From a virus: a DNA stretch of 28,194 nt. The notes beneath the pieces are model-generated. The model saw only the letters and a list, made by a program, of their open reading frames with translations, was not told the DNA's origin and ran no database searches. Of this stretch, positions 10,354-27,381 are shown in pieces (position 1 is the first letter of the stretch; every line of letters begins with the position of its first letter). The stretch covers positions 1 through 28,194 of the IMG/VR virus record IMGVR_UViG_3300035698_015139. One strand, written 5' to 3'. Made by a program: the position numbers and the translations under genes.

Positions 10354-11805
10354 TTAGGTTCCTGAAGGATAGACGATCGCGTTAATCTTGGGGATGCCGT
10401 TAAGTACACAAGCTTGGCCTGAGGCTTCTTTAGCTCGGAGTTGGATTGTTAAAGCTACGCCAGCGGCCGGGTTGATAATTACTGATTCTACCCTGAGTGT
10501 TGTACTAAACGTAGAACCAGCCGAACTGATATTAAATTGAGACTCGTCCAATTGTTGACTATTTGTGTCTTCATAAAGTTCAACAAAGCACTGGTCGTTG
10601 GTACCGCCACCAATATTAACACTTCCCCATACATGGATTAGGTATCCCGGCCCTGGAGGTACAATGTGGATATCTAGAATGTTAGAGCAGCCTGTGGTGT
10701 ATACGTCGTCACAGACCGTTGAAACTGCGATTGAAGTTGCTTGGACTACGTAAGGCCCCGGCATCTGAGAAGCTTGAGCTTGTTCAGTTACAGACGCTTG
10801 GCTCCATCGGCATTGTGTGCCTCCTGTAGCTTCATTTTGTAGGGTCATGGTTAGGTCATTAGCACTAGCATCTGTTTGAGCCCGAACACTAAGCGTTACA
10901 TAGTCATTTGAAATTGTTTCGGATTCTTGAGATGCTGGAATAGTTGTGACTCCCGTACCTGTGACTCTTAGCTGACAAGTAACACCGCTGAGGGCTCTAG
11001 CACGCACTGAGAATCGATACCAAGTAGAAGCTTTAAGGCCGGATAGGGTTTGACTGTGCCCATAGTCGGCAGAGCCACTAACTGTAATAAGCCCTACGCC
11101 AACTCCCTCAGAAGCATTAATGGAGATTAAGTAGGCGACTGTGCCTGTGTTTATTTCTGTCCAAGATACAGGTGTATTCGCACTAGCTAAGTCTCCGTCA
11201 CCGTCACTAGCATCAAAGCCACCATTTGTGAGGAGGTTACGGATACCAAGCTGCGAAGCTGGCACCCAACCGTTAGCTACAGTCGCCGGAGTGTTGTCTC
11301 CAATCTCGCCTTGAAAGAAGTAGAGCTTGTAGTTGTCGTCGGTGTCTACCCAGCAGCGGCCTTGGCCTACGTCGTCCTCGGCTTGGCCTGCAGAGTTTGA
11401 GGCAGAGTCCTCTAAGCCTGTGACGCCTGCGCCACTTCCGAGAGTGTTCAGATAGTCCGTTACAGTTGCTGGCGTGGAGTGGCTATCGTTAAGGGTGGTC
11501 GGAGCTGTGGCCTGAAAGTAGCAGCGAGCTGAGCCTAGGCGATGGAGTCCATTGTCATCATTAGTAGCGTCTCCGTCTCCAACATGATGCTCAACTTCCA
11601 AGCGGTAGCGAACATTCTGACGCTGATTTCGGATGTGATCGTCGATTGCTGAGCGAGCAGTGTTGTTCGTGATGTCACCATGAGTTCCCGCAGCACCTTC
11701 ATAGGTGCCGTCCCAAGTACCCCCAAGCACCACGGGAGGCAGAGCTAGTAGAAATGCTACGGGAACTGCAAAGTAGAGAGTAAGGCGTAGAAGTAGACGA
11801 TCCAT
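10354..11805 (-). CDS. Signal-peptide protein with carbohydrate-binding-like beta domains
   Basis: A 483-residue protein with a convincing Sec signal peptide: a charged start (MDRLLLR), a hydrophobic core (residues 8-27) and a small-residue end (VVLGG). After it come phage-like low-complexity sequence (30-180), a jelly-roll region (about 188-345, LLTNGGFDASDG to RWSQASVTEQ) resembling CBM4/9-type carbohydrate-binding modules, and a C-terminal beta domain. I count eight cysteines, an even number compatible with disulfides. It sits between the adaptor-like and nozzle-like genes, where T7 has nothing. Its ATG overlaps the upstream TAA (TAATG). Either it is an exported protein or a tail protein whose N-terminus only mimics a signal. 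Confidence 0.6.
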   Translation of the reverse strand: MDRLLLRLTLYFAVPVAFLLALPPVVLGGTWDGTYEGAAGTHGDITNNTARSAIDDHIRNQRQNVRYRLEVEHHVGDGDATNDDNGLHRLGSARCYFQATAPTTLNDSHSTPATVTDYLNTLGSGAGVTGLEDSASNSAGQAEDDVGQGRCWVDTDDNYKLYFFQGEIGDNTPATVANGWVPASQLGIRNLLTNGGFDASDGDGDLASANTPVSWTEINTGTVAYLISINASEGVGVGLITVSGSADYGHSQTLSGLKASTWYRFSVRARALSGVTCQLRVTGTGVTTIPASQESETISNDYVTLSVRAQTDASANDLTMTLQNEATGGTQCRWSQASVTEQAQASQMPGPYVVQATSIAVSTVCDDVYTTGCSNILDIHIVPPGPGYLIHVWGSVNIGGGTNDQCFVELYEDTNSQQLDESQFNISSAGSTFSTTLRVESVIINPAAGVALTIQLRAKEASGQACVLNGIPKINAIVYPSGT

Positions 11806-12485
11806 TAGGATCCTCCCATGTGAGGTTGGCTGGTGAGTTGTGTTTCGATACCCCAGTTGTGAGCCTCGAGTACGCCTTTGGTTTCGACGTTCTGTACGAG
11901 GCTATTGTAGAGCTGGAAGGTTTCGTTTGATTTGTCGCGCATGTTGAGTTTGAATTCAGTGAAAGCTTGGGCTCCGGTGATTAGGACTTCATCGAAGTAT
12001 TCGGGGATTACTGTAGCGGTGGATGCTGTCAGAGGGGCAGCCTCACGCCATAGCCGAATGCGCACCGTGTTCGATGAGTTAGGAGAGCCCGAGAGGAAGA
12101 TGCTTTGGTCCTCACCTACAGTGTAGTGGCGGGGCTCTGTCACGGGATGGATCGTGCTGTCATACCATTGGATTGGCTTGGGCTTGAGCATGTGCCTGCG
12201 GGTGAGGTTCGTTATGGACGCTGAGATTGCGTGGTGGTAGGTGACTGATCGGATGGCTAGGATTCGGTGCCCGATGAGGGAGTCGAGAGCGTACTCTTGA
12301 GTTCCGACAACGAGCGCAAGGTCGTAGGTCTCGGCTAGGTCTTCAAACTTGTGCACGGACGGATGCGTGAGGTGCTGGTAGGCGTGATTGATCCAGCGGT
12401 CGAGTCGGGCATCAAGTACATCCTCTCGATTGTCGATATTCTCTCGCAGTTCATTGCGAAAATCTGTTAGGGTCATTGATCCCAT
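11805..12485 (-). CDS. Tail adaptor / head-tail connector, gp11- or gp4-like, putative
   Basis: A 226-residue protein beginning MTLTDFRNELRENID and then REDVLDARLDRWINHAYQHL, the helical opening typical of podoviral adaptor proteins (T7 gp11 tubular protein A, P22 gp4) that bind under the portal ring. A beta-rich middle with ILAIRSVTYHH and RHYTVGEDQSIFLSG follows, then a C-terminal helix (YFDEVLITGAQAFTEFKL). Length is close to the family's usual 170-230 residues. Its stop overlaps the next start by one base (TAATG). SD AAGGA lies about 11 bases upstream of the first ATG; a second ATG three codons in is possible. Confidence 0.65.
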   Translation of the reverse strand: MGSMTLTDFRNELRENIDNREDVLDARLDRWINHAYQHLTHPSVHKFEDLAETYDLALVVGTQEYALDSLIGHRILAIRSVTYHHAISASITNLTRRHMLKPKPIQWYDSTIHPVTEPRHYTVGEDQSIFLSGSPNSSNTVRIRLWREAAPLTASTATVIPEYFDEVLITGAQAFTEFKLNMRDKSNETFQLYNSLVQNVETKGVLEAHNWGIETQLTSQPHMGGS

Positions 12486-12503
12486 GGGGATAGGTTTCCT
12501 TGG

Positions 12504-13343
12504 TTAAATGGGAACTTCATCATCCTTGACGGATTCATTCTCAGGGAGTCGCGTGGGCATTACGTCCTCGGGGTCTACCGGATCCCAGTTGGCTGAGCTT
12601 GTCCAGATGCCCGGGTAGTAGCCGTCCTCGATGAGGTCTTCAGCGAAAGCTGGGGCTCCGGTTTTCATGTCCCGCACAGGGCGACCTTTTGAGGCGGGCT
12701 CATTGTTCCAGCCGGTGTAGAAGGGTGCATACTGACCCTGCATGAAGCCTCGGCTGTAGTCGGCGGGGACGTTGATATTCCAAGCCGTGCCTAGCGTATT
12801 GGGGAAAGTTAGAATGAGACGTCCGTTCCATTTGCAGTTTTTTACAACGCGCCCCATGGAGTTAGCGTTACGGACATTTCCATACTGAGCGTTGAAGTCG
12901 AGTTTGAACGTCATGTCATAGGTGGACCCGTTGAGTACCCAGATTGGCGAGTCTGCCGCGTAGGGGTTTTCAATGGTCTGCACGTCTACGTCGGATACTT
13001 GAAGCGGGAAGTAGCTGGATGTCCAGAGACTGTGATTTGGGTCTGTGCGGAATTCATAGCCACGGGTTGCATCTGTGGACGTTAGATTCGTGGGCAGAGT
13101 TAGGGTGAAGTAGAGGTCAGACTCAGCCTGAGTGTAGAAATTATTGGGCTCAAGGATCAAGCCAAGGTCTGCGTCATTGGAGACTTCGAAATTGTAGACT
13201 TGAGTATAGAGCCCGACGTCTGGGATGACGATTGTGTCATTGGCTGCGGGGAGTGCGAGTTGGATCCAGAACGGACTACCAAAGGCCACGTTACGGTAGC
13301 CGTGCTGCTCGAGGACGGGCGTGTAAGGGATTGGATCAGTCAC
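12504..13343 (-). CDS. Structural protein, unknown function
   Basis: A 279-residue protein starting with GTG that overlaps the o-spanin candidate's stop by 8 bases. It is soluble, aromatic-rich and probably all-beta (VYNFEVSNDADLGLIL, FTLTLPTNLTSTDATRGYEF, FKLDFNAQYGNV), with an acidic C-terminal tail ending DDEVPI. It has one Cys and no signal peptide or membrane segment. Lying between the lysis genes and the adaptor-like gene, it is probably a virion or tail component. No family recognised. Confidence 0.6.
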   Translation of the reverse strand: MTDPIPYTPVLEQHGYRNVAFGSPFWIQLALPAANDTIVIPDVGLYTQVYNFEVSNDADLGLILEPNNFYTQAESDLYFTLTLPTNLTSTDATRGYEFRTDPNHSLWTSSYFPLQVSDVDVQTIENPYAADSPIWVLNGSTYDMTFKLDFNAQYGNVRNANSMGRVVKNCKWNGRLILTFPNTLGTAWNINVPADYSRGFMQGQYAPFYTGWNNEPASKGRPVRDMKTGAPAFAEDLIEDGYYPGIWTSSANWDPVDPEDVMPTRLPENESVKDDEVPI

Positions 13344-13632
13344 GTTTATGCTCGCCTCGGTAAGCGTTGATGCTGGCGCAGTAGGCTTCTAGGTAGTCTA
13401 TGCGACGGGCCAGGTGTGGATAGACTGTGGCGTAACCTTCAGTGTCTACTTCAAAGGCTTTGGATTTGTCTAGAGCTACGCCGAGGTAATTGGGCCACCC
13501 GTCTTTTACAATACACCCCAGAGGCAGCTCACTTGCTGGAAGCTTCCCGGTGTTTACGCAGGCGCTCACGGTCATCAGAAAGATCAGTACCACGCTTAGA
13601 ATTAAAGGTCTCGTGTTGGCGTTCTTGGGCAT
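13336..13632 (-). CDS. o-spanin (Rz1-like) outer-membrane lipoprotein candidate
   Basis: A 98-residue protein from ATG 13632, preferred over a start at 13677 because it gives a clean lipoprotein signal: MPKNANTR, a hydrophobic core, then lipobox MTVSAC, with lipidation expected at Cys 25. An AAAGG/AGGGG stretch precedes the ATG. The mature part is about 74 residues with two further Cys and is less proline-rich than classical Rz1. It overlaps the membrane-anchored protein at 13529-13768 by about 100 bases in a different frame, the usual Rz/Rz1 arrangement. Together they would span the periplasm and fuse inner and outer membranes at lysis. The call rests on lipobox plus architecture. Confidence 0.65.
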   Translation of the reverse strand: MPKNANTRPLILSVVLIFLMTVSACVNTGKLPASELPLGCIVKDGWPNYLGVALDKSKAFEVDTEGYATVYPHLARRIDYLEAYCASINAYRGEHKRD

Positions 13633-13768
13633 TGTCCCCTGCCTTTTGTTGTTTGAGTTGTGTTTCCATTGAGCCATGCTTGCTTTTAGTCCGACCCCAC
13701 CAGTAGAAACCGGCCCCTAGAGCTATGAGAATAGTCAAGTACATGAAGATGGGTTCGAGGAAGCTCAC
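13529..13768 (-). CDS. i-spanin (Rz-like) inner-membrane protein candidate
   Basis: A 79-residue protein with one N-terminal transmembrane segment (about residues 6-24, ending FYWWG) followed by a highly charged, probably coiled-coil tail. This is the topology of an inner-membrane spanin, though shorter than lambda Rz (153 residues). It starts with GTG overlapping the upstream TGA (GTGA, 4 bases). The o-spanin candidate begins inside it in another frame. Confidence 0.6.
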   Translation of the reverse strand: MSFLEPIFMYLTILIALGAGFYWWGRTKSKHGSMETQLKQQKAGDNAQERQHETFNSKRGTDLSDDRERLRKHREASSK

Positions 13769-14040
13769 TGTCGAGCTTCGCGCTCACCTACCTGCACTAG
13801 GCGTGTAAGGCGTTTGATCTCACGCGCAGCCCAGTGACGCTTGGGACTGCGTTGAGCCTCCCACATCGCAAGGTGCTCAGTGAACATCTTGATCTGATCC
13901 TTCTCGACTTGGAAGGCGTCGGCTACAGGTTCAGGCGTAGGGGCTCGTGTGACGGCAGCTTTCGCCTTCGCGATGATACCCTTGGGCTTGGGCTTGTCTT
14001 TCGACTTGGGCGCGTTAACGGGGTCAGGATCAGTGGGCAT
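13765..14040 (-). CDS. Small charged protein, unknown function
   Basis: A 91-residue soluble protein in the lysis cluster. Residues 1-45 are Lys/Pro/Ala-rich and probably disordered (KSKDKPKPKG); residues 45-91 form a charged helix with Trp residues. SD GGAG lies 6 bases before the ATG, and the stop overlaps the i-spanin start by 4 bases. Not recognised; could accompany packaging of the lysis proteins or be a minor virion component. Confidence 0.55.
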   Translation of the reverse strand: MPTDPDPVNAPKSKDKPKPKGIIAKAKAAVTRAPTPEPVADAFQVEKDQIKMFTEHLAMWEAQRSPKRHWAAREIKRLTRLVQVGEREARQ

Positions 14041-14043
14041 GAC

Positions 14044-14271
14044 TTACTCCTCGTCGGCAGGCTTACGGAGGCTGTTGTCTCCTGCCTTACCATGGTTTCC
14101 TGCTACGAAGTCTACGACGCTACGAATTACGCCCTCGACCTTGCTTACGATTTCGTCGTCCTTCTTGCCTGGCGTGACCTGAGCGATTCGGCGCGCGAGC
14201 TCGGCTACGAGCAGGACAATTGCTGCAATAGTGACAATGAGGCTATCAGGGCCTCCGATTGATTCTTCCAC
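14044..14271 (-). CDS. Holin candidate (small single-TM protein)
   Basis: A 75-residue protein starting with GTG; SD AGGAG lies 6 bases upstream. One clear transmembrane segment (about residues 10-25, SLIVTIAAIVLLVAEL), then an amphipathic helix (EIVSKVEGVIRSVVDFVAG) and a charged tail ending KPADEE. Size, single helix, charged C-terminus and place beside the spanin genes fit a holin or pinholin that permeabilises the inner membrane at lysis. Families of such holins share little sequence, so the function is by context. Confidence 0.5.
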   Translation of the reverse strand: MEESIGGPDSLIVTIAAIVLLVAELARRIAQVTPGKKDDEIVSKVEGVIRSVVDFVAGNHGKAGDNSLRKPADEE

Positions 14272-14287
14272 GTGGATCTCCTACCGC

Positions 14288-14566
14288 CTAGACGGTTAGT
14301 TGTTTAATAACGAAGGTACCAATTGTTCCCAGTACAGCTCCGCCACCGGCTGCGAAGCCTGTAGCCCAGATGAGCTTATTGGTTAGGTTTCTTACTTCCA
14401 CTTTTATACCCTCCAAGGCTACTTCATGTTGAGCATTCCATTCGTGTTGGTGTTCCCAGTAGCCAGTCACTTTGCCATTGTAAGCTGACTGTTTGTTCAT
14501 GTGGTCTTCGAGAACAACAACACGCGCCCGGAGGGGATCTTCAACTGCTACGGCACCATTTACCAC
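14288..14566 (-). CDS. XhlA-like coiled-coil membrane protein (lysis-associated)
   Basis: A 92-residue protein starting with GTG, with GGAG 6 bases upstream. Residues 8-65 form a charged coiled coil (RARVVVLEDH, HEVALEGIKVEVRNLTNKL). Residues 66-88 are a single Gly-rich transmembrane helix (ATGFAAGGGAVLGTIGTFVI). This matches the layout of haemolysin XhlA-type proteins encoded next to holins in many phages. It lies directly upstream of the holin candidate and is probably part of the same lysis cluster. Confidence 0.6.
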   Translation of the reverse strand: MVNGAVAVEDPLRARVVVLEDHMNKQSAYNGKVTGYWEHQHEWNAQHEVALEGIKVEVRNLTNKLIWATGFAAGGGAVLGTIGTFVIKQLTV

Positions 14567-14593
14567 GTAGAACTCCTAACCTTATTATTGGGA

Positions 14594-15415
14594 TTAGCGA
14601 GTCTGTGTGGTTAGGACGTAGTCGATGTCCATAGCTTGAACATCGTTATCAGAGATGTTTGCAAAAGTCGGAGTCATTGCTTCATCAAAAGCATCATCAC
14701 TAGTGCGAACATGAACTAGTGTATCGTCGATGTAGAATTCGATAGTTGTGGTCCCTACAAGTCGAATGCCATATTTGTGGTAAGTAGCATCAAGGAGTGT
14801 GAACGGGATCGTATTGCCTTCGTAGTCTATGCCTGCCCCGAGCACTGTATTTTGGATATTGGCTATGGCAATACCGGCTGAGGTTAGGTTGAAGGTTCCT
14901 GAGCTAGCGAATTGATGGTGAAAGCCGATATGATTATCTGCACCGTTGTTCTGTAGGGTACCGTTAGTTGAAACGAATGAAGTATCAACTTCACCCAAAC
15001 CAATGTACCAATCTCCATTGTCTACATCTGTGAGGGAGACGTAGGCTTCGAAGTTTATTACTCGTCCTGCAGCGGCTATAATGGTTGCATTGTCATTTTG
15101 AATAGAAACCCAGCCTTGGTTAAAGGTACCATGAGATGCTCGCATGATACCGCTAGACACACCTGCGACGAGTGCGATATCCGTAATGGTGCCTGCAGTT
15201 TCAGTGGCCGTCCAATCTGCAAGCTCACTCGTATGGGTGAAGTCATTGAAGGTGGTTGAGACTTCACGATTCGAGAGGATGTCCATAGGTGCACCGGGTA
15301 CACGTACATTCGGAGCAGCGACATCATTGGTTCCGGCAATTACATGGGTGCCACGGAAGGCTCCGCCGCCAGAGGTCGTGTCAGCAAAGACACCAGTACT
15401 TCGTAGATCGGGCAT
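14594..15415 (-). CDS. Lectin-like (concanavalin/LamG-type fold) virion protein, putative
   Basis: A 273-residue protein. ATG 15415 is chosen over ATG 15445 because AAGGAGA lies 5-6 bases before it. The N-terminus (residues 5-21, RSTGVFADTTSGGGAFR) closely matches the C-terminus of the preceding 96-residue protein. Residues about 60-270 are beta-rich with the pattern of a jelly-roll lectin: VINFEAYVSLTD, then GDWYIGLGEV, then YHKYGIRLVGTTTIEFYIDD. Such domains occur in phage appendages that bind sugars. No Cys. The gene lies between the secretion-linked genes and the lysis cluster. Head fibre or capsid-decorating adhesin are both possible. Confidence 0.6.
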   Translation of the reverse strand: MPDLRSTGVFADTTSGGGAFRGTHVIAGTNDVAAPNVRVPGAPMDILSNREVSTTFNDFTHTSELADWTATETAGTITDIALVAGVSSGIMRASHGTFNQGWVSIQNDNATIIAAAGRVINFEAYVSLTDVDNGDWYIGLGEVDTSFVSTNGTLQNNGADNHIGFHHQFASSGTFNLTSAGIAIANIQNTVLGAGIDYEGNTIPFTLLDATYHKYGIRLVGTTTIEFYIDDTLVHVRTSDDAFDEAMTPTFANISDNDVQAMDIDYVLTTQTR

Positions 15416-15480
15416 GTGTTTCTCCTTAGGTCGCCCAGAGGGCATCCGACTTAGAGTTTGGGTTGGGTGGTAATGTTAGA

Positions 15481-15771
15481 TCAGCCTTCGCCCCAAGCTT
15501 TGTAGGCTGCACTGCCTGAGACAGTGTCAGCCCAGAAGCCTGTACTGCGAGCTGCGTGGACTATGGTATTTCCCGGGAGGAGACTGTGAACGGCACCATT
15601 CTTCGTAAGGTGGTAGCGCATTGTGATCGTGGCACTATCATTTGCCACGGTTACTTTATTGGCCATGACGCCTTCAGCGTGCCATAGAGCATTGGCATCT
15701 GTGGTTTCAGTGGTGCCTGCCGAGGCACTCTTCTGTACAAATTGATGGCCGTAGCCGACGTCTAAACTCAT
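15481..15771 (-). CDS. Small beta protein sharing a motif with its downstream neighbour
   Basis: A 96-residue protein with GGAG 6 bases before the ATG. Predominantly beta (ANKVTVANDSATITMRYHL), without Cys, signal peptide or membrane segment. Its C-terminal residues 75-91 (RSTGFWADTVSGSAAYK) match the first residues of the lectin-like protein encoded 65 bases downstream, suggesting a shared docking or folding element. Not otherwise recognised; probably a virion or capsid accessory protein. Confidence 0.6.
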   Translation of the reverse strand: MSLDVGYGHQFVQKSASAGTTETTDANALWHAEGVMANKVTVANDSATITMRYHLTKNGAVHSLLPGNTIVHAARSTGFWADTVSGSAAYKAWGEG

Positions 15772-15822
15772 GCGAAACTCCTTGGTTGATGTGGAGAGAT
15801 TAGCTGCCCCTAGGGGAGGATG

Positions 15823-16122
15823 CTACTTTCGGCGACGTTTACCTAGAGCTAGAAGCATTAAGGTTCCGACTAGCAAACTAGAGGCCACATTAGGTTCTGG
15901 CACGAAAAGCATATCGCTGGGAGGGCTGAACATATGAAGATGTCCCTCGAAGTAATTACAATACTCTATAGTGTGATTGGGCGGGACCGAGGTTATTGTC
16001 ACCCCCTCGGGGGTATTTATATCCTCATCAAAATAGTGCTGGCCTGACACTACGATTAATTCAGACTCTGGCCAGCTATGATACAAGGGCTGTTCAATGT
16101 AAGTTTTAGTTATGCAGGGCAT
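15823..16122 (-). CDS. Small protein with a PEP-CTERM-like C-terminal anchor
   Basis: A 99-residue protein. ATG 16122 overlaps the TAA of the adhesin-like gene (TAATG), so reinitiation is likely; an in-frame GTG at 16173 would add 17 residues inside the upstream gene. The C-terminus has the three parts of a PEP-CTERM sorting signal: VPEP at residues 74-77, a hydrophobic helix at about 79-94 and the basic end KRRRK. In known systems exosortase recognises such tails on Sec-exported proteins. This protein has no N-terminal signal peptide, whereas the gene just upstream does. The body (30-70) is short and beta-like. An exported fusion by recoding, an in-cell membrane protein or a captured host fragment are alternatives. 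Confidence 0.65.
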   Translation of the reverse strand: MPCITKTYIEQPLYHSWPESELIVVSGQHYFDEDINTPEGVTITSVPPNHTIEYCNYFEGHLHMFSPPSDMLFVPEPNVASSLLVGTLMLLALGKRRRK

Positions 16123-18101
16123 TAGTTTAGGTCGTCCGAGCCGTGTTGGACGACATTCAGTGTTGCAACGCACTCGACATCAGTGTCGTCTGGGATCTGG
16201 ATTCGAAGCATGAAGCCATTGTTGTTGCGGCCTTGGAGGGTTAATGCCCAGTTTCCTGCAGCGTGGCTGCCACCCTTGAAGACTGATTCCATTTCTACGT
16301 TTTGGTCAGCTTCGTAGACTGCCGAGCCTGTAGAGTAGCTGTTGCCATAGATTGTTGGGGAGTTGATACCATCCCAAGCTGCGATGTTTTGGATACGCCA
16401 CATTTCAACTTCGCTAGGTACGCCACCGTCAGAGGTGACATCGACAGCTTCAGTACAAATGGCATCACCCTTAATCATGTAGATGCCTTGGTGTTTGAGA
16501 ACCATGTCGGGGGCCGAGCCGGATGAGCGCATCAGCATTGTGCTCTCGCCTGTGCCCAGTTGGCGCTTTCGAGCGACGACTTTCCACGATTGGATCGCGC
16601 CGGGGGCCGTGTCTGAGGCGTCCCAGCCTGGGAGGTGGCCGACTACTTCCTGGCCAACGATATGAGCGTAGCCACCGTAGCCTTTGACAGTTGCGTAGTC
16701 TGGACACACTAGGCCAGCGGTGCACTCGACAGTGTTGTTGTGTCCTGACGGAATTCCCGCGCCGCTAAGTATGTCATCGGCACTCCCGTTTATGATCCGG
16801 TTGGTGAATCCTCCTCCTACGACTGACCTTCTTACAGGCTGAATGCCGGTTGAGCTAATGGAGCCAAATCTACCACTTAGAATTCCATTGGATCCGCCCC
16901 CACTTTCAGTGACGCCTCGGTAATCGATTAGGTTTTCAGACCCGCCACCGATTAAATCATATTGTGTCTTAACCCCCGCACCGCCATTGTTTGCACCCCC
17001 CGTAAAGTTTGCTGCAGTAGGTTCGGGGCCGATGATTGCATTGTCTTCGCCATTGTTGATGCCACTATATTCAGCGTTGCCACAGATGATATGTGATGGG
17101 CCTGAGAGGATGGAAAGGTGACCTGAGCCGAAGCCTGGTGAGCAGATTAGGTTATGGCGTCCGCCGACTACAGAGAGCTGAGCGTTGGTGATGTTGTCGC
17201 TACCGCCGACGACTGCGGAGTAGTTTGCGCGTGTGCCGGTAAAGCCCGGATATGTAGACCAAACTGTTCCACCCTCATCCTCTTCAATGAACAGTGCAGT
17301 GGTAACTGTGCCCATGGTTGTAGGCCATTGGCCGGATTTCCCAATGAAGCACGAGTTGGCTTGGCTACCGTCTGTATCTTGGCAGGGTACCGGGATAGCA
17401 GATGCGAATGATAGAGGGTCAATCTCATTCCAGTAGCCTGAGGTGAGTGGATTCGCTGTGATGTTCTGGTTTCGAGCTGTGTTTACGCCGAGGGTTCCAC
17501 TGTCAGTGATCTCTATTGCATCTAGTACGCGCCCGCCACCTGAGGTTCCAGGTTCGGAGATGTGTACTGTGGCTGAAGAAAGGGCGATTGATATGCCTGC
17601 AGCATCGATTGTACCTAGGATTGATATACAATCGTTAGTGACAACGGATAGTGATCCGGCCATAGACCCACTAATGGAATTGGTGCTTCCTACAGTAAAT
17701 TCGACACCCTCACTGAATTCATCTCCGTTGGCCATTGGTAGGCCGGAAGATTGTTCAGTGCCAAACTTGAGGATGAACTTATCTGTAGCGCCACCACCGG
17801 CTGTACGATTAAATGAGATCGCTGCACTGAGTGCGATGACTCTGTTTGTGGCTCCCGTGTAGCAAATTGAACCGGCGTTTACGGTGAACTCATTTGTTAC
17901 GTCAGCAGACTCTGCCCAGCTTGTTGTCATGGGGACATAAGAGCCATTTGTTAGGGCTGTGGTTGCCGCGTTGCCTCCCGTGTCTGCACTTAGGAAGATG
18001 CCGGGAGTTGTTGTTAGGCTACCGTCTGGGCGGGATAGTTGAGCTGAGGCTGTGCTGGAAAACAGCAGTGTGAGTGTCAGGATAGGCAGTACAAATTTCA
18101 T
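16122..18101 (-). CDS. Signal-peptide adhesin-like protein with head-type beta repeats
   Basis: A 659-residue protein. ATG 18101 is preferred over an in-frame GTG at 18119 because it gives a textbook Sec signal: MKFVLPILTLTLLFSSTASAQ, with AxA cleavage before the Gln, and GGA 6 bases upstream. After a beta-rich region (to about 280), residues about 290-480 contain irregular repeats of the type SVVGG..N.I and IGGGSENLI, like the YadA/Hep-Hag head repeats of trimeric adhesins. The C-terminal 180 residues look like a phage appendage domain (GESTMLMRSSGSAPDM, then GNWALTLQGRNNNGF). I count ten cysteines, several in close pairs. It follows the capsid gene after the longest gap in the head-tail region. 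Tail fibre or exported surface adhesin are both open. Confidence 0.6.
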   Translation of the reverse strand: MKFVLPILTLTLLFSSTASAQLSRPDGSLTTTPGIFLSADTGGNAATTALTNGSYVPMTTSWAESADVTNEFTVNAGSICYTGATNRVIALSAAISFNRTAGGGATDKFILKFGTEQSSGLPMANGDEFSEGVEFTVGSTNSISGSMAGSLSVVTNDCISILGTIDAAGISIALSSATVHISEPGTSGGGRVLDAIEITDSGTLGVNTARNQNITANPLTSGYWNEIDPLSFASAIPVPCQDTDGSQANSCFIGKSGQWPTTMGTVTTALFIEEDEGGTVWSTYPGFTGTRANYSAVVGGSDNITNAQLSVVGGRHNLICSPGFGSGHLSILSGPSHIICGNAEYSGINNGEDNAIIGPEPTAANFTGGANNGGAGVKTQYDLIGGGSENLIDYRGVTESGGGSNGILSGRFGSISSTGIQPVRRSVVGGGFTNRIINGSADDILSGAGIPSGHNNTVECTAGLVCPDYATVKGYGGYAHIVGQEVVGHLPGWDASDTAPGAIQSWKVVARKRQLGTGESTMLMRSSGSAPDMVLKHQGIYMIKGDAICTEAVDVTSDGGVPSEVEMWRIQNIAAWDGINSPTIYGNSYSTGSAVYEADQNVEMESVFKGGSHAAGNWALTLQGRNNNGFMLRIQIPDDTDVECVATLNVVQHGSDDLN

Positions 18102-18220: not shown

Positions 18221-19129
18221 CTAAGCGTCAGAGCCCCAATTGCCTCTCCAGTCATTGAGCATGACCGAAGCACGGTACATCACCATGTGTTGTGAGTCCT
18301 TGGTGATTGCATCACCGGCAGATGAGAAATCAACACCCATTCGATCGTTCCAAATGAGGTTGTTCTTGCCTGCTGGGGCGTGGAGAGACCATCGCGTGGT
18401 AGACGACAGGTAGGGGACCACGACAGGCGTGATGCCTGAGCGTGAGCTAACGACGGTAGACTTGTCGTTGTTAGCTGTTCCTACCGAGTGCTCCGTGTTC
18501 AGGAGCTGGTACGCGAAGTGCTCTTGCTGTGGATGGATGACGAGCTTGTTCTGCATCAAGTTAATGAAGCGCCCCTCGTCGGAGCGGGTTGTACGAGCAA
18601 GTGTCATCATTGCCTCAAGCCCGGCGATGGAGAGGTCTACTGCCGGAGAGATGATGTTTGACTGGACGAGGGAGTTGTCACGAATCGACGTGTGGGTTGC
18701 GGAGAACATCAAGTCCCCCTCGAGACCCGTCGAGGTCGTGAAGCCGCCGTCGAAGTGAGACCATGCGAGACGTTCGCGATGGTCCTTGGTGCTGTCGCCG
18801 AGGTCTGCTGACATTTGACTCATGATGCCGTGTTGGTCGTCCATGAGCATTTCCATGGATGCGCGCCACCCGAGTGCATAGGTGGTGTGCGTGGCACGGA
18901 CCTTAGTACCCTGCACAGGGGCGTCGAACGCAATGGGTGCGCCTTCGGCCTTCGTGGCGAGGGTGCCGAATCCAGCGACTCGCATACGGTCTTCGTAAGC
19001 TTTCGTGCTGGGTTTCGACTGGTAGATCTGCGACCACATCTCGGGCTGCATCTCGTACTGTTTGAAGAAGATGTCCTTCTGATCTGCCTGAAGGAGTTCG
19101 TAGAACTGCGGAGTGAGTGTCTGGGGCAT
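18221..19129 (-). CDS. Major capsid protein (HK97 fold, Mu gpT-like), probable
   Basis: A 302-residue protein without Cys. The N-terminus (FYELLQADQKDIFFKQYEMQ) is helical, followed by an acidic and Gly-rich region. Then comes YALGWRASMEMLMDDQHGIM and SHFDGGFTTSTGLEGDLMFS, the pattern I know from Mu-type major head subunits, whose later part contains a beta domain and a C-terminal strand-rich segment (HMVMYRASVMLNDWRG). It has a very strong SD (AAAGGAG, 7 bases from the ATG), as expected for the most abundant protein. It follows the scaffold-like and decoration-like genes. The shell protein identity is well supported by context; the exact family is by eye. Confidence 0.75.
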   Translation of the reverse strand: MPQTLTPQFYELLQADQKDIFFKQYEMQPEMWSQIYQSKPSTKAYEDRMRVAGFGTLATKAEGAPIAFDAPVQGTKVRATHTTYALGWRASMEMLMDDQHGIMSQMSADLGDSTKDHRERLAWSHFDGGFTTSTGLEGDLMFSATHTSIRDNSLVQSNIISPAVDLSIAGLEAMMTLARTTRSDEGRFINLMQNKLVIHPQQEHFAYQLLNTEHSVGTANNDKSTVVSSRSGITPVVVPYLSSTTRWSLHAPAGKNNLIWNDRMGVDFSSAGDAITKDSQHMVMYRASVMLNDWRGNWGSDA

Positions 19130-21191: not shown

Positions 21192-21509
21192 TTAGATGTC
21201 TTCGCTTACGAGCATGTAGTTGTCTCCTGAAGAGTCCCCCTCGGGGGTTGGGTCTTTCTCTTCATTAGCCTCGTGGATGATGTTGTTTGTGAGGCGGCCT
21301 AGGAATGTGTCGATGAAGCTTACTACCCCGCGGGCCTCGATTAGGTCGTTTGCTGGGATGTCTTTGGCCATTTGTTCGAGGTAGGATTGCCTACACTGGG
21401 CCAGGAGATGCTCCATTAGGGGCCAAGTTTCCCGGTCCCTCAGTAGGGCCGTTAGGCGCTGCAGTTTGTCGGGCTCGATCTCCAAGAGCAGAGAGTTCGC
21501 TAGCGGCAT
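21192..21509 (-). CDS. Unknown protein overlapping the portal gene's 3' end
   Basis: A 105-residue protein whose first 39 codons lie inside the portal gene in another frame. The long overlap is kept because the ATG at 21509 has GGAGGA 8 bases upstream, one of the best SD sites in the window. Later in-frame ATGs at 21416 and 21371 are the alternatives. The protein is helical and leucine-rich (LLLEIEPDKLQRLTALLRD, MEHLLAQCRQSYLEQMAKD), with an acidic tail ending MLVSEDI. Not recognised; a head-assembly accessory role is possible from its place between portal and scaffold. Confidence 0.6.
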   Translation of the reverse strand: MPLANSLLLEIEPDKLQRLTALLRDRETWPLMEHLLAQCRQSYLEQMAKDIPANDLIEARGVVSFIDTFLGRLTNNIIHEANEEKDPTPEGDSSGDNYMLVSEDI

Positions 21510-23346
21510 TTGGTGTGTCCTCCATTGTTAGGATGAAATTCTCGATGTCGTCTACTTCGGCGGCCTCGAGGAAGCGTTTGTAGGTGTGGGTCATTCCACG
21601 GATCGCTTGGCCGTAAGCGGTTACGAAGAGGGGCTGCATTTCTTGAGGACTGGCCTGAAGGACGGTTGCCCAAGCCTCTACGAATCGGGCGATGTTGCCC
21701 CAGTAGTTTTGGTTCTGTTGGTCGATCTGGACTTGGCGCTGCATTTCACGGTCGGGGTTGTCGGAGCGTGAGAGGCCCTTGATTTGGAATTTGTAGTTTC
21801 CGGGGATGGGGTCTTCTGGGTAGTAGATGGACTCGGCTTTCTCTCCGTCGAGGTCTCCCAGAACCTGCTTAAGTTTTTCAGGACTGACGCCGAACTGTTG
21901 GTTGAGCGTGGAGATGAATTCGCCAGCGCGACCGAGAGTTCCTTGGAGAAGTCCACGATCTGGAGCTGCAAGGGTGTTGCCGCGCTCGAGGAGGGCGAGG
22001 GTGGTTGTTGCTGGGGCACTGTGGCCGCCTAGGCGAGTTTCGCGACCCTGGGCGGGGTCTGATTGGCCGGAGATTCGTTCGGCTGCGGCTTGGATGACTT
22101 GCATGAGTTGGATGTTGTTGAAGGAGGAGCCTTGGAGGGCTAGGGGTTCTACTCCTTGCATAGTCGGATCCCAAACCCAACGAGCCATATCGATGGGCTG
22201 CTCTTGGAGTTCTCGGATGTTTGTCTTGCCCCATACGGAGTTTGCTCGGGTCTGAGCGTCAATGCCTTGGTTGAAAATTACTGTGTAAGAGGCTTGGAGT
22301 TGCTCGAGGATCTTGGACATCCCTACGGAGTGGCCGCGTCCAGGGCGTTTATGGAAGTAGCCGTCGAAGAAGGGCTTGCCCGGGTAGTAGTAGGGTTGGG
22401 TGGTGAGGCGTAGGATCTTTCCCGTCTTGCGGTGAATGGTTGCTCGGATGTCTACGTTGACGGTGTCTATGCTGGCATTGCCGGGTGTGGCTATGTCGGA
22501 GCCGTGGATGTCGAGGGCGTTGATTTGAGGCCAGCTTACGGTTAGTTCACGGATATCGTGGGGCTCGAAGCCTGTGGGAGCTTTGGCACGGTTGTCGAGG
22601 TCGTCTCGGGCCTTTTGGATTGAGGCACCGAATTCACAAAGGCCGTGTTGGTTGCGGACTGATTCTATGGCCTCGTCTATCCAGCCATCGGAGCCACGGG
22701 AGGCCGCGACTAGTTCGGTGTGGGTCATGTTGAATTGGCGGGAGACTGCCGGGGCTTCACTGATGCTGGGGTAGTTTGTATCCCAGAGGATTTGATGGCG
22801 CGGGACGTGTTCTAGGATTGGGCCTACGTTCCAAGAGACTGGGACGGCTTCTACGCCTTTGTTACCTTTTACGTATACATAGGAACGGTTGTCGCGCCAG
22901 TTGCCTGCGAGGACCGAGGAGCCCATGACGTTGGACTCTAGGAGCCAATCGTAGCTAGTGGGGCCGAAGTCGAAGTCGTTACCGGAGGCTTGCCAGTTGA
23001 GGTAGCGAGCGATTGTTTTGGATTGGTCTTCGAAATTTTCATTGAGGCGTTTGGTTATCCATATGGAATCGCCAAAGGCGTGCATTGATTCCCAGATGGA
23101 GGCTGTGCGGCTGTCTACCATGGACCTAATCAAAGGGATGACTACGTTGCTGGCATTCTTGAATGGGTAGTTTTTTACTTTATGCCTAGGTTGGGCTTCG
23201 TAGTTCTTTTCCCAGATCTCCATGGCGGTGATTAGGGGCTTGGACTGGGTCTCTAGGTCGGTTACGAGGTTACCTAGGTGGATCTCTAGCTGCCGGAGTT
23301 TGTCTTCTGAGAGGCGGATTGGAGTTGCGGGGTTTAGATTTGCCAT
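21391..23346 (-). CDS. Portal protein
   Basis: A 651-residue protein of portal size for podoviruses. It begins with an acidic helical region (LSEDKLRQLEIHLGNLVTDL), then YPFKNASNVVIPLIRSMVDSRTASIWESM, a segment typical of portal proteins of this type. A long mixed alpha/beta body follows (VMGSSVLAGNWRDNRSYVYV, KPFFDGYFHKRPGRGHSVGM), then a helical region and a Pro/Gly/Ala-rich C-terminal tail. A dodecamer at one capsid vertex would serve as DNA entry and tail docking site. It sits between the terminase and scaffold genes as expected. SD AGGA lies upstream of the ATG. One Cys noticed. Confidence 0.75.
   Translation of the reverse strand: MANLNPATPIRLSEDKLRQLEIHLGNLVTDLETQSKPLITAMEIWEKNYEAQPRHKVKNYPFKNASNVVIPLIRSMVDSRTASIWESMHAFGDSIWITKRLNENFEDQSKTIARYLNWQASGNDFDFGPTSYDWLLESNVMGSSVLAGNWRDNRSYVYVKGNKGVEAVPVSWNVGPILEHVPRHQILWDTNYPSISEAPAVSRQFNMTHTELVAASRGSDGWIDEAIESVRNQHGLCEFGASIQKARDDLDNRAKAPTGFEPHDIRELTVSWPQINALDIHGSDIATPGNASIDTVNVDIRATIHRKTGKILRLTTQPYYYPGKPFFDGYFHKRPGRGHSVGMSKILEQLQASYTVIFNQGIDAQTRANSVWGKTNIRELQEQPIDMARWVWDPTMQGVEPLALQGSSFNNIQLMQVIQAAAERISGQSDPAQGRETRLGGHSAPATTTLALLERGNTLAAPDRGLLQGTLGRAGEFISTLNQQFGVSPEKLKQVLGDLDGEKAESIYYPEDPIPGNYKFQIKGLSRSDNPDREMQRQVQIDQQNQNYWGNIARFVEAWATVLQASPQEMQPLFVTAYGQAIRGMTHTYKRFLEAAEVDDIENFILTMEDTPNAASELSALGDRARQTAAPNGPTEGPGNLAPNGASPGPV
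21518..21523 (-). promoter_or_regulatory. Ribosome-binding site inside the portal gene
   Basis: GGAGGA in the portal coding sequence, 8 bases before the ATG at 21509 of the overlapping downstream gene. It decides that long overlapping start. Confidence 0.6.
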
Positions 23347-23353
23347 GGGTTTC

Positions 23354-24343
23354 CTACTGCGGGCTCTCGGGAGGGGTTGCGCTGCTATTGGGTAAACCCA
23401 ACTCGGATAACCAATATGTTTTCTGGATTAACCTGCGGTTATCTGGGGTTTGGGTAGGCGAGCTACCGGAGTTAGCTGGGGCCGGGGTTAGATTGGCGAA
23501 GCCGTCTAAGGCTAGGTTTGCGTTGCCAGACATGATTCCACGCATCATATCGGAGTTACCGAATGCAGAGTCTCCAAGCTCGTACCTAACAGAAGCTGCC
23601 GCTACGAATTGATTCTCGTTCAAAAGTAGCTTGGACTTTGAGGTTAGACGTTTGAGGTGGAGTAGCTCATTGAGCACACGCTTACTTAGCATGGTATCGG
23701 AAGCTTTCTCAGTTATTGTGTCACCTTCGGAAACGGGAGAGCCGTCGGGACGTTCGGTTGAACCCCAGCCATAGACCCAGGCTCCCTGACTGTTCTGTTT
23801 GGCTTTCGGGGTGAATACCTTGGCTCCCCGACCTAGTGCACGGCGCTCCCATAGTTTAGGGTCGCGTGCGTTTAAGCCATCGTCGATGTGTACGGTGTCC
23901 GGCGTGGCGAAATCTCCACCCCACCGTAGGCGTTTAGATGCCTGTACGCCTTTTAGAACTTTCGTGATTTCAAGTGGTAGGTTTTTCCAGTTCGATTTAG
24001 CTAAGGCTTTGGAGTTGAAGAAACCCGCTTTAGACTGCAGGTTCATGTCGAAAGCATGGCCCGCCATGTGGTTTGATTTCTGTGCGGGCTCTACGATAGC
24101 CCCGTTAACTTTTGCGTTTTCACGCGCGGAGCTAGTAACATGAACTTTTACGCTGTGGCGTTTTGCAAGCTTATTCATTTCGTCTAAGGCGGAGAAGAAA
24201 TTCTCGTCTGCCATGATGGGCTTACCCACGAACTGAGAACCCGTGTAGACTTTTCGCTCTGTGCTTGGACTATCACCCTCTAGGGTTTTTAGCAGTGCAG
24301 AGAGTTTTTCGGCCATGGCACTCAGGTTGTCAAAACTTCCCAT
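23354..24343 (-). CDS. Peptidoglycan hydrolase: M15-type peptidase plus lysozyme-like domain
   Basis: A 329-residue protein from ATG 24343 (AAAGG 10 bases upstream, 14 bases after the previous stop). A longer form from ATG 24490 (AAAGGA 7 bases upstream) would add 49 residues, including a hydrophobic segment. Numbered from 24343: the M15 zinc motif SxHxxGxAxD has His 92 and Asp 99; DxxH supplies Asp 149 and His 152, as in L-alanyl-D-glutamate or D-Ala-D-Ala peptidases. From about residue 165, GAWVYGWGST and GDTITE, then NQFVAAASVRYELGDSAF and a later RR, recall GH24 muramidase, but the catalytic Glu position appears to be Leu. It could be the endolysin or a virion-associated wall enzyme; it lies far from the holin candidate. 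Confidence 0.7.
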   Translation of the reverse strand: MGSFDNLSAMAEKLSALLKTLEGDSPSTERKVYTGSQFVGKPIMADENFFSALDEMNKLAKRHSVKVHVTSSARENAKVNGAIVEPAQKSNHMAGHAFDMNLQSKAGFFNSKALAKSNWKNLPLEITKVLKGVQASKRLRWGGDFATPDTVHIDDGLNARDPKLWERRALGRGAKVFTPKAKQNSQGAWVYGWGSTERPDGSPVSEGDTITEKASDTMLSKRVLNELLHLKRLTSKSKLLLNENQFVAAASVRYELGDSAFGNSDMMRGIMSGNANLALDGFANLTPAPANSGSSPTQTPDNRRLIQKTYWLSELGLPNSSATPPESPQ

Positions 24344-24356
24344 GGCGTCAGAACCT

Positions 24357-24836
24357 TTAAGCAGACTTACCGCTTCCTTTCTTTTGGGCACGATGGGAAG
24401 CACCCGAGGGTGGGTTTTGATTGGGGGCGGGAGTAGTAGTGATAGGAAGTGGATCAGGAGTGGCCACGCCGTCTTTAGCCTCTGAAGCATCAAAGATTCC
24501 TTTCTGCCCGTCGATTCCAGTAATCTCAGAGATTGACTTATGGATATACATGGTTCGTCGATTGGAGCTGGGGCTCGCGCCTCGGAGGATTGTTCCCCTA
24601 CAGAGGAGTTCGCAACTTACCATTCCTGAGGGGCCTTCGATTGTGTAGACCTTGGTGCCTTCGGTTTGGTGCCAGCCTGCGTCTTGGGCTTCTTTCTTTC
24701 CACCAACAGGCCACTGGGCGTAGGTTACGCCGGGCCACCCGCCTTGCTTGGGGAGCAGGGAAGGGTGGGTGTCTCCCTTGATGGCTGGGCCGAGTTTGGG
24801 AATTACGTTGAGGAATGTGTATGGAGACTGGTTCAT
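24357..24836 (-). CDS. Unknown protein with disordered C-terminal tail
   Basis: A 159-residue protein; GGAGGA lies 10 bases before the ATG, partly in a small hairpin. Residues 1-110 look folded (GWPGVTYAQWPVGGKKEAQD, then TKVYTIEGPSGMVSCELLCRG), with two Cys. The last 40 residues are Pro/Thr/Ser/Lys-rich and probably disordered (PDPLPITTTPAPNQNPPSG). The same bases, in another frame, would encode the hydrophobic N-terminus of the longer hydrolase form. No family recognised. Confidence 0.55.
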   Translation of the reverse strand: MNQSPYTFLNVIPKLGPAIKGDTHPSLLPKQGGWPGVTYAQWPVGGKKEAQDAGWHQTEGTKVYTIEGPSGMVSCELLCRGTILRGASPSSNRRTMYIHKSISEITGIDGQKGIFDASEAKDGVATPDPLPITTTPAPNQNPPSGASHRAQKKGSGKSA

Positions 24837-25138: not shown

Positions 25139-26971
25139 TTAGGAAGTTTCGTAGGTGAATTCGCCATAGCCGGTGATTCCACGGTCATTTCCGTGTTTGT
25201 TTAGCCACCAGGCGCGTTGGATTGCGTCTGGGGTTTGGGGGCGGGTTATTGATTCTGGGAGATAACTTGCAGCATCGAGGGTGTCAACTGTTTGCCCGTG
25301 GGGGAATTCGTTCTTTTCCTTCACGAGGGCGTGGGTGGGGGCTATGGATTGGCTCCCCGGGGGGCCGACGTTGTAGTGAACTAGACCCAGTTCGTGGTTG
25401 GCAATGAGGTTGTTTCGGATCCGTCCCTGCTTGTCCCTGCCTTTGGGAAAGACGGGCTTCCATTGAGGGCGGAGATGTTTGTATTCGGGTTTGAGGTTCA
25501 TGATTGTTCGCCAGAGGGGCTCGTAGACGGCTGAGAAGACTACTTCTTCGACAGACCAGGTCCAGGCTTGCCACTTTTGGGAGAGGGCAATGGTTAGGTC
25601 GAGGATGATTTCTGGGGTTTCGTTCGAGGTGACGGACTCGAGGTAGAACCATCGTCCCCAGGGGTCGATTGCGCAGGCGACTAAGCCGTTTCGCGCGTGG
25701 TGGTTTTGGCGTACCTCGGGGCCTTTGGACGGGGCGGGGTCGAGGATGATTGCTTTCTCACACCAACTGAGGGGGACTCGCTGGGGGGCAAAGTCTGGTG
25801 GGTGGCTCATGTCGGGGTTGAAGATGAGACCGTTGTAGGTTTCGTGGTTGCCGGTCTTGGAGATGTGAATTGTGGGCTCGCCTCCCTCGGAGACTATATA
25901 GAAGGAGCCGTCCCATACTTCTGTGAAGGATTGGGATTTTCCTGCCTTGGGGACGCACTGGTATTGAGCACTGAAGACGAAGATGTTACGCTTCGCCATG
26001 ATCTTGGCTTTCTTGGTGGAGATTTTCTTGGGTAAGGTTGATTCCCCGTGGGTGGTGTCGGGTTCTCCTGTTTCGGGGTTCTCTAGGAGGGCTCTCTGGT
26101 AGATTTGCCACTCTCCAGGCCAGGTTTGTTCCATGTGCTTGTAGACATCATGGTAGGCCCAGGTTGTGTGGTTCACGAGGACGTTGCCGCCTTCTGCAGG
26201 GCGCTCGAGGGGCCGGGAGTTGTCTACCCATTCGAAGGCAGACTCCATTACGGCGGGGCTGCGCTGGGCTTTGAGGCCGATGATGTCATCCCAGATCATA
26301 TCGGTGAAGTGCTTGCCGACTGCGGTGCCGCCGATTCCATGGGGTTCGATGGAGAGTTCAGCGATGCCTGGAGTGCCCCGGTTGAAGAGCATTCCGGTGC
26401 CGCCCCATTTTAGCTTGCGGGAGGTGGTGATTCCTTTTTCTCGGTCCCAGTAGCCGATTCCCTTGGGGATGAGGTCTCGGTAGAGGGTCTGGAAGAGGTG
26501 GTTGGATTCGACTACTTGGCGGATTGCGTCGATCCATTGGATGGGTTTGTCTTCGGTTTCGTTGAAGATGGCGATTGTTGCCGCACCGTCGGTCTTGGCT
26601 AGACGGTAGAGGGCGTTCGCTCGGGTGAAGCATGAGGTCTTGAAGGTCTCACGGGGGATGCGGATCATTATTCGCCGGAAGGACTCTTGGATGTTGTCTT
26701 CTTCGTAGCCTCCCCGCGGGGTGTTGTAGAGAATTTGGCCGTCGTTTAGGTGGGTTTCGCCCCAGTGGCCTACGAGTTGGCAGGGTTCGGCGTGGAATTC
26801 CCAAGTCATGTCGCGGAAGTCGAATATTTCTTTGCAGAAATACCAGAGGCCGACGTCGGGATCGGTGAAGAGTTGCCGGAGGGCGGTGATTTGAGGATTG
26901 GACAGGTCTCGAGCGGAGCCCCGGGAGTCTCGCATGTCGGTTAGGATTTCTGACTGGGGGGCGGCTGACAC
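25139..26971 (-). CDS. Terminase large subunit (packaging ATPase/nuclease)
   Basis: A 610-residue protein of usual TerL size, starting with GTG after AAAGG. ATPase domain: a Walker A-like region with a non-classical IRIPRETFKTS (103-113), Walker B-like MIWDDI (225-230) and a coupling-type region after it. Nuclease domain: D411 in IILDPAPS, E475 in the VEEVVFS region, and D563/D566 in TVDTLDAASYLPE, the acidic cluster that binds metal in RNase H-like terminase nucleases. It would pump DNA through the portal and cut the concatemer. A terminase small subunit candidate lies upstream, separated by the RyR-domain gene. Confidence 0.85.
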   Translation of the reverse strand: MSAAPQSEILTDMRDSRGSARDLSNPQITALRQLFTDPDVGLWYFCKEIFDFRDMTWEFHAEPCQLVGHWGETHLNDGQILYNTPRGGYEEDNIQESFRRIMIRIPRETFKTSCFTRANALYRLAKTDGAATIAIFNETEDKPIQWIDAIRQVVESNHLFQTLYRDLIPKGIGYWDREKGITTSRKLKWGGTGMLFNRGTPGIAELSIEPHGIGGTAVGKHFTDMIWDDIIGLKAQRSPAVMESAFEWVDNSRPLERPAEGGNVLVNHTTWAYHDVYKHMEQTWPGEWQIYQRALLENPETGEPDTTHGESTLPKKISTKKAKIMAKRNIFVFSAQYQCVPKAGKSQSFTEVWDGSFYIVSEGGEPTIHISKTGNHETYNGLIFNPDMSHPPDFAPQRVPLSWCEKAIILDPAPSKGPEVRQNHHARNGLVACAIDPWGRWFYLESVTSNETPEIILDLTIALSQKWQAWTWSVEEVVFSAVYEPLWRTIMNLKPEYKHLRPQWKPVFPKGRDKQGRIRNNLIANHELGLVHYNVGPPGSQSIAPTHALVKEKNEFPHGQTVDTLDAASYLPESITRPQTPDAIQRAWWLNKHGNDRGITGYGEFTYETS

Positions 26972-27051: not shown

Positions 27052-27381
27052 CTAAAGCATTGCGTGTACGATGGCTCGAAAAATGAAATCCTTAGCTTGC
27101 TGTTCTACAGGTAATGCTGTAAACGGGACTATACAAGGATGTGTTTTAGCTATCTCGTCCTTTGTGTTGCCATAAACCCAACCAGCTTTTACCTTTTCAG
27201 CCATCCAACTTACGTGGCTGTTCTCAGGCCCAGCATCTAGATTTTCGGAGTGGAAGTTAACTCCATTTATAGCACTTGTGCGCTGCCATTCTGGAGCATC
27301 TTCCCAAGATTTCTGGCTATGATCTCCTAAGGCTAGGCAATAGGCACGATTTGCTTCGTGGCATACTTTGGCAATGTTCAT
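27052..27381 (-). CDS. RyR-domain protein
   Basis: A 109-residue protein matching, along most of its length, the RyR domain first seen in ryanodine receptors and also found in small bacterial and phage proteins: CHEANRAYC near the start, WEDAPEWQRTSAINGV, then SWMAEKVKAGWVYG and KTHPCIVPFTALPVEQQAKD. These are the most recognisable residues of the family (PF02026). Function in phages is unknown; no enzyme is implied. SD AAGGG lies 7 bases before the ATG. About 45% GC by counting four 60-base lines, against roughly 55-70% in sampled lines of both neighbours. It separates the two terminase genes and is bracketed by related stem-loops, all of which point to a late insertion. Confidence 0.85.
   Translation of the reverse strand: MNIAKVCHEANRAYCLALGDHSQKSWEDAPEWQRTSAINGVNFHSENLDAGPENSHVSWMAEKVKAGWVYGNTKDEIAKTHPCIVPFTALPVEQQAKDFIFRAIVHAML

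Follow-up and report, generated by a model that had tools for sequence, protein, structure and literature searches.

Introduction

The substrates of the PEP-CTERM/exosortase (EpsH) system, for which TIGR02595 is a profile model, are distinguished by a PEP motif, a hydrophobic helix and a basic cluster at the very C terminus, and by few basic residues before this tail (Haft et al. 2006, PMC1569441). Such proteins adopt an N-out/C-in topology (Haft et al. 2006, PMC1569441) and about 97% of them carry a signal peptide (PMC1569441). The locus considered here, located in a window that comprises the whole 28,194 nucleotides of a linear IMG/VR virus record (a metagenomic contig), encodes a protein that resembles these substrates in its tail, which closes with five basic residues, and in the scarcity of basic residues before it, is otherwise unlike known proteins, and departs from the described substrates in its length of 99 aa, in lacking an N-terminal signal peptide, in being encoded by a phage and in having two Cys in 77 residues. 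To our knowledge, the host exosortase sorting route has not previously been linked to phages, and no report of phage PEP-CTERM genes was found in the literature searched. A second system that comes to mind is that of the -1 frameshift pairs of phages, namely the tail assembly chaperones, which likewise consist of overlapping -1 frames; here, however, there is no slippery site, and both the position and the type of protein are different, so that the likeness is one of layout only.

Gene organisation of the window

All the main predicted genes of the window, tail genes included, lie on the minus strand (Table 1). The phage is a deep branch: its closest capsid matches are about 30% identical to the window capsid, and the identity of the terminase to its nearest relatives is about 25%. 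Terminase, portal and capsid genes, the only ones shared with the nearest phages, are common to a set of contigs whose stretch behind the capsid gene differs contig by contig, and the two-gene cassette therefore sits in a variable fibre/cargo region. The 483-aa fibre-like protein of the window matches an ORF of the PEP-CTERM-carrying phage G046 (E 1.3e-5).

Table 1. Positions of features discussed in the text, in window coordinates
Feature	Position	Strand	Remarks
Terminase large subunit	25139..26971	-	phrog_38, E 9e-31
Lysozyme-like endolysin	23354-24493	-	
Portal protein	21391..23346	-	phrog_1216, E 3e-4; relatives found
Major capsid protein (gpT-like)	18221..19129	-	PF25209, E 1.5e-16; phrog_371; directly upstream of the two-gene cassette
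659-aa fibre-like protein	16122..18101	-	N-terminal signal peptide MKFVLPILTLTLLFSSTASA/Q (crude signal-peptide scan)
Overlap of the two frames, 52 bases	16122..16173	-	TAATG junction at 16120-16124
99-aa ORF with C-terminal PEP-CTERM-like tail	15823..16122	-	TIGR02595 match; no signal peptide
PEP-CTERM match (VPEP, hydrophobic stretch, KRRRK)	15826..15903	-	six-frame profile search of the contig
96-aa gene 3' of the cassette	15481..15771	-	good Shine-Dalgarno; weakly similar to the next gene
283-aa gene, SPRY/lectin-like region	14594..15445	-	PF00622, E 6e-4, below cut-off
483-aa fibre-like protein, FN3-like region	10354..11805	-	signal-peptide-like N terminus MDRLLLRLTLYFAVPVAFLLALPPVVLGG

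Two further parts of the window may be mentioned. A RyR-domain protein (27052-27381), 60-68% identical to proteins from phages of several unrelated hosts, stands out from the rest of this very divergent genome, and a lipoprotein-like protein (LIFLMTVSAC) together with two small membrane proteins (13336-13677, 14044-14271 and 14288-14566) probably constitute a lysis cassette.

The 99-residue protein and its tail

The C terminus of the 99-aa ORF is VPEPNVASSLLVGTLMLLALGKRRRK, in which VPEP is followed by a hydrophobic helix of about 14 residues, NVASSLLVGTLMLLALG, and by the basic cluster KRRRK at the extreme end. The earlier note had recognised a PEP-CTERM-like tail in this arrangement, and the NCBI PEP-CTERM model TIGR02595 (curated cut-off 16 bits) bears this out, both with the protein itself (17.7 bits, E 0.0048; hmmscan) and with the whole contig searched in six frames (19.3 bits, E 9.1e-5), whereas the stricter Pfam model PF07589 gives the tail 10.2 bits, short of its cut-off of 20.7, such that the profile check proposed in that note holds for one model and fails for the other. 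In about 1.7 Mb of sequence from 62 related viral records, TIGR02595 produced a single match above cut-off, itself a PEP-CTERM-family protein, and 2 of 14 whole control genomes passed the same cut-off. The likelihood of a chance tail match in 28 kb is small, yet not negligible given the number of windows read. A profile made from 13 phage tails, and biased by the pattern through which these had been selected, did not score the 99-aa tail, and tblastn searches with short PEP-CTERM tails gave no information, even when a consensus tail served as query.

The distribution of charge is strongly asymmetric. Up to and including VPEP (77 aa) there is one K or R and there are 11 D and E, and in the 22 residues after VPEP five K and R and no D or E, a pattern for which the positive-inside rule predicts an N-out/C-in orientation, as in the PEP-CTERM topology. 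AlphaFold yielded unusable models for the single sequences of the pair (pLDDT 46 and 34), that of the small protein agreeing with expectation only in the C-terminal helix 79-93. As had been noted earlier, no signal peptide is present at the N terminus (MPCITKTYIEQPLYHSW...) or in frame upstream of it. Because the signal peptide is a defining feature of the family, we class the 99-aa product as a signal-less protein with a PEP-CTERM-like tail and not as a canonical PEP-CTERM protein. Some acidic N-terminal tails, tens of residues long, traverse the inner membrane without a signal peptide, and its absence thus does not strictly forbid the N-out/C-in topology.

The codon usage of the 99-aa frame is the highest of the six frames but weak, at -0.10 bits per codon as against +0.25 to +0.41 for the neighbouring genes. 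No convincing relative of the protein was found in IMG/VR, GTDB genomes, INPHARED or PDB, nor did a pattern scan of IMG/VR and GTDB genomes reveal a homologue of either protein of the pair. The contig contains no exosortase, as expected for a phage.

Junction and translation of the cassette

The two ORFs share one base, as TAATG, and the small frame, which is open from 16173 and thus overlaps the fibre frame by 52 bases, is -1 relative to it; on all these points (15823-16122, 16122-18101, the open frame, the -1 relation and the length of the overlap), as well as on the strong signal peptide of the upstream gene and the TAATG junction, the earlier note was accurate. Most neighbouring genes have a Shine-Dalgarno sequence, unlike the 99-aa gene, before which none is recognisable (the upstream sequence is cggacgacctaaactaATG). 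A TAATG junction lacking a Shine-Dalgarno sequence is what coupled translation would give, and for this reason two products are preferred, coupled translation of two proteins being simpler than recoding. A promoter and terminator scan of the cassette revealed no clear excess over shuffled sequences.

PEP-CTERM proteins in other viral contigs

The earlier note had regarded a phage that places a host-sorted surface protein as unusual, a premise which proves to be wrong, since complete signal-peptide + PEP-CTERM genes recur beside packaging genes in viral contigs. In two pattern scans of IMG/VR, PEP-CTERM proteins turned up on at least about 130 viral contigs, and nearly all of these proteins have signal peptides. 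A degenerate DNA pattern for VPEP[ST]T...LL returned 28 viral stretches, with a TIGR02595 match above cut-off in 14 of the underlying records. In one contig of this kind (G047), a signal-peptide + PEP-CTERM gene is flanked by a capsid gene (phrog_138, E 3e-93) on one side and by a virion structural, fibre-like gene on the other, a position comparable to that of the 99-aa gene; comparable genes occur on contigs that also hold structural genes (G045/G046) and on a 245-kb viral contig.

The second pattern, VPEPA[ST]...LL..G, gave at least 120 stretches. Among the matches listed, 120 of 121 are C-terminal, before a hydrophobic stretch, and a lenient scan detects a signal peptide in 110 of the 114 non-truncated proteins; the pattern itself is biased towards C-terminal tails, though not towards signal peptides. 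At no fewer than 46 of the 120 loci listed, a terminase or portal gene lies within 6 kb, nearly always on the same strand, and the packaging genes concerned belong to several families (phrog_2, 979, 9; 156, 1216). As some records may carry host flanks, the count beside packaging genes is the safer number. In 12 records, no phage-encoded exosortase scored above cut-off. The 99-aa protein has in common with the phage signal-peptide + PEP-CTERM proteins (L127-L246, G046, G047, G071) that it is a phage gene product with a PEP-CTERM tail, but these are mostly of about 180-270 aa, nearly all have a signal peptide, are often encoded near terminase or portal genes, and show no sequence similarity to it.

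At least 83 of the listed matches belong to one blastp-linked family. This family of at least about 83 signal-peptide + PEP-CTERM proteins, spread over L127-L246 of the IMG/VR set (for example L133:2767-3504, L174 and L148), is often encoded beside terminase or portal genes and is apparently unreported, and one member compared with INPHARED matched no isolated phage. Another record (L114:7231-7413, G049) encodes a phage protein of 60 aa in which a PEP-CTERM tail is combined with a lipoprotein-like N terminus.

Two of the PEP-CTERM-carrying contigs share packaging or capsid genes with the window. L224, which like L174 belongs to the VPEPA[ST] set, has the capsid in common (MCP, E 4.9e-26), and its portal falls in the same PHROG as that of the window, phrog_1216. 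L237/L254 (G071) shares the terminase (E 9.7e-14) and encodes a PEP-CTERM protein that scores 23.7 bits. These contigs are distant relatives and prove only that PEP-CTERM cargo occurs in the wider lineage. By eye, the G071 protein (L237:5852-6463) appears to lack a signal peptide and to begin at the mature N terminus, ATG-STFIQF, although it is not among the proteins that the lenient scan listed as signal-less; its ATG stands behind a GAGGT Shine-Dalgarno-like site and directly before the mature N terminus of the family, as though a precise deletion had taken out the signal peptide.

If phages do encode host exosortase substrates, then the surface of the infected or lysogenic cell could be changed through a sorting route of the host, and the signal-peptide + PEP-CTERM genes beside terminase and portal would suggest a host prediction for many uncultured phages, restricted to exosortase-bearing Gram-negatives. 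The gene pair of the window would then be a variant with the tail and the signal peptide divided between two proteins.

Interpretation of the gene pair

The reading that we tentatively favour, at a little under even confidence, is that of an exported fibre-like protein with a coupled, membrane-anchored 99-aa partner bearing a host-type sorting tail, both of which would act at the infected cell's envelope. Sequence, profile match, junction and the precedent of other phages are observed; translation, topology, processing and function are inferred. The cassette would consist of two translationally coupled late genes in the variable region behind the capsid gene, the first giving rise to a fibre-like protein exported via its signal peptide, and the second translated as a separate protein by coupling or reinitiation at TAATG. 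The C-terminal helix and KRRRK would anchor the 99-aa protein in the inner membrane, with its acidic and nearly K/R-free N part lying in the periplasm and its basic end in the cytoplasm. Probably the VPEP-helix-basic tail derives from, or has been adapted to, the sorting system of a host with an exosortase, as in other PEP-CTERM phages, and the likely role of the protein would be to retain the exported fibre at the envelope or to pass it on there, possibly for surface masking or superinfection exclusion. In favour of such an anchored partner are the TIGR02595 pass, the charge asymmetry and the TAATG junction without Shine-Dalgarno sequence; furthermore, the interval 15772-16121, if noncoding, would form a gap out of keeping with the tight packing of the operon, and PEP-CTERM genes occur next to terminase or portal genes, in G047 between a capsid and a fibre gene, and in L224 and L237/L254. 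Against it are the missing signal peptide, the failure of PF07589, the weak codon signal, the phage-tail profile that missed this tail, and the lack of homologues of either protein. The more specific proposal of a split surface anchor, in which a signal-peptide fibre and its signal-less PEP-CTERM partner, a distinct product of coupled translation, together display the phage fibre on the infected cell via the host exosortase, as an outlier of a widespread and apparently unreported phage habit of encoding exosortase substrates, we consider unlikely.

The same shortcomings of the 99-aa protein, the departure of its tail from the consensus of phage PEP-CTERM proteins and a look-elsewhere effect over many windows speak for a tail without sorting function. 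Such a tail could be a membrane anchor that carries a VPEP by coincidence, or what is left, after decay, of the C terminus of a PEP-CTERM gene captured from a host or phage, the front part having been lost. This main rival is possible but somewhat doubtful, given the TIGR02595 pass, the absence of any unrelated chance match in the 1.7 Mb of related viral DNA and an intact reading frame that starts exactly at the junction. Both the earlier suggestion of -1 recoding within the overlap, which would join signal peptide, fibre and tail into one surface protein of about 775 aa, and the notion that a one-base error of assembly or sequencing, or else an indel of recent origin, has split a former gene of this composition, draw on the fact that the composite has the PEP-CTERM parts in their canonical order; the former has the right frame relation, and the latter is consistent with a metagenomic contig and with the weak codon signal of the small ORF. 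Recoding is nevertheless highly improbable: a scan of the last 60 fibre codons and the overlap found no X XXY YYZ heptamer in the fibre frame, as the earlier note had stated for classical slippery heptamers, RNA folding at the junction is no more stable than in shuffled sequences (z -0.41), with no sign of a stimulatory downstream structure, no fused homologue was found, and the codon score of the overlap favours the fibre frame (0.055 as against -0.233 in the small frame, over only 16 codons). That these codons fit the fibre frame up to its stop argues also against an error or indel, as does a break lying exactly on a TAATG junction typical of coupled phage genes, and we regard this explanation as improbable.

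The fibre-like protein

The 659-aa gene encodes a textbook N-terminal signal peptide, and the VVGG..N repeats of its product, as judged by eye, suggest a trimeric beta-roll. Searches of Pfam, PDB, phages (INPHARED), IMG/VR and GTDB genomes returned no convincing relative. Among the capsid relatives, signal peptides were counted 14 times as against 7.7 in shuffles, a figure too crude for a general enrichment, although individual cases are clear. Apparent signal peptides, odd for virion proteins, occur on fibre or tail-region proteins of several phages, including those in L121 (G046; 11279-17708), L053 and L031 and the window protein at 10354-11805.
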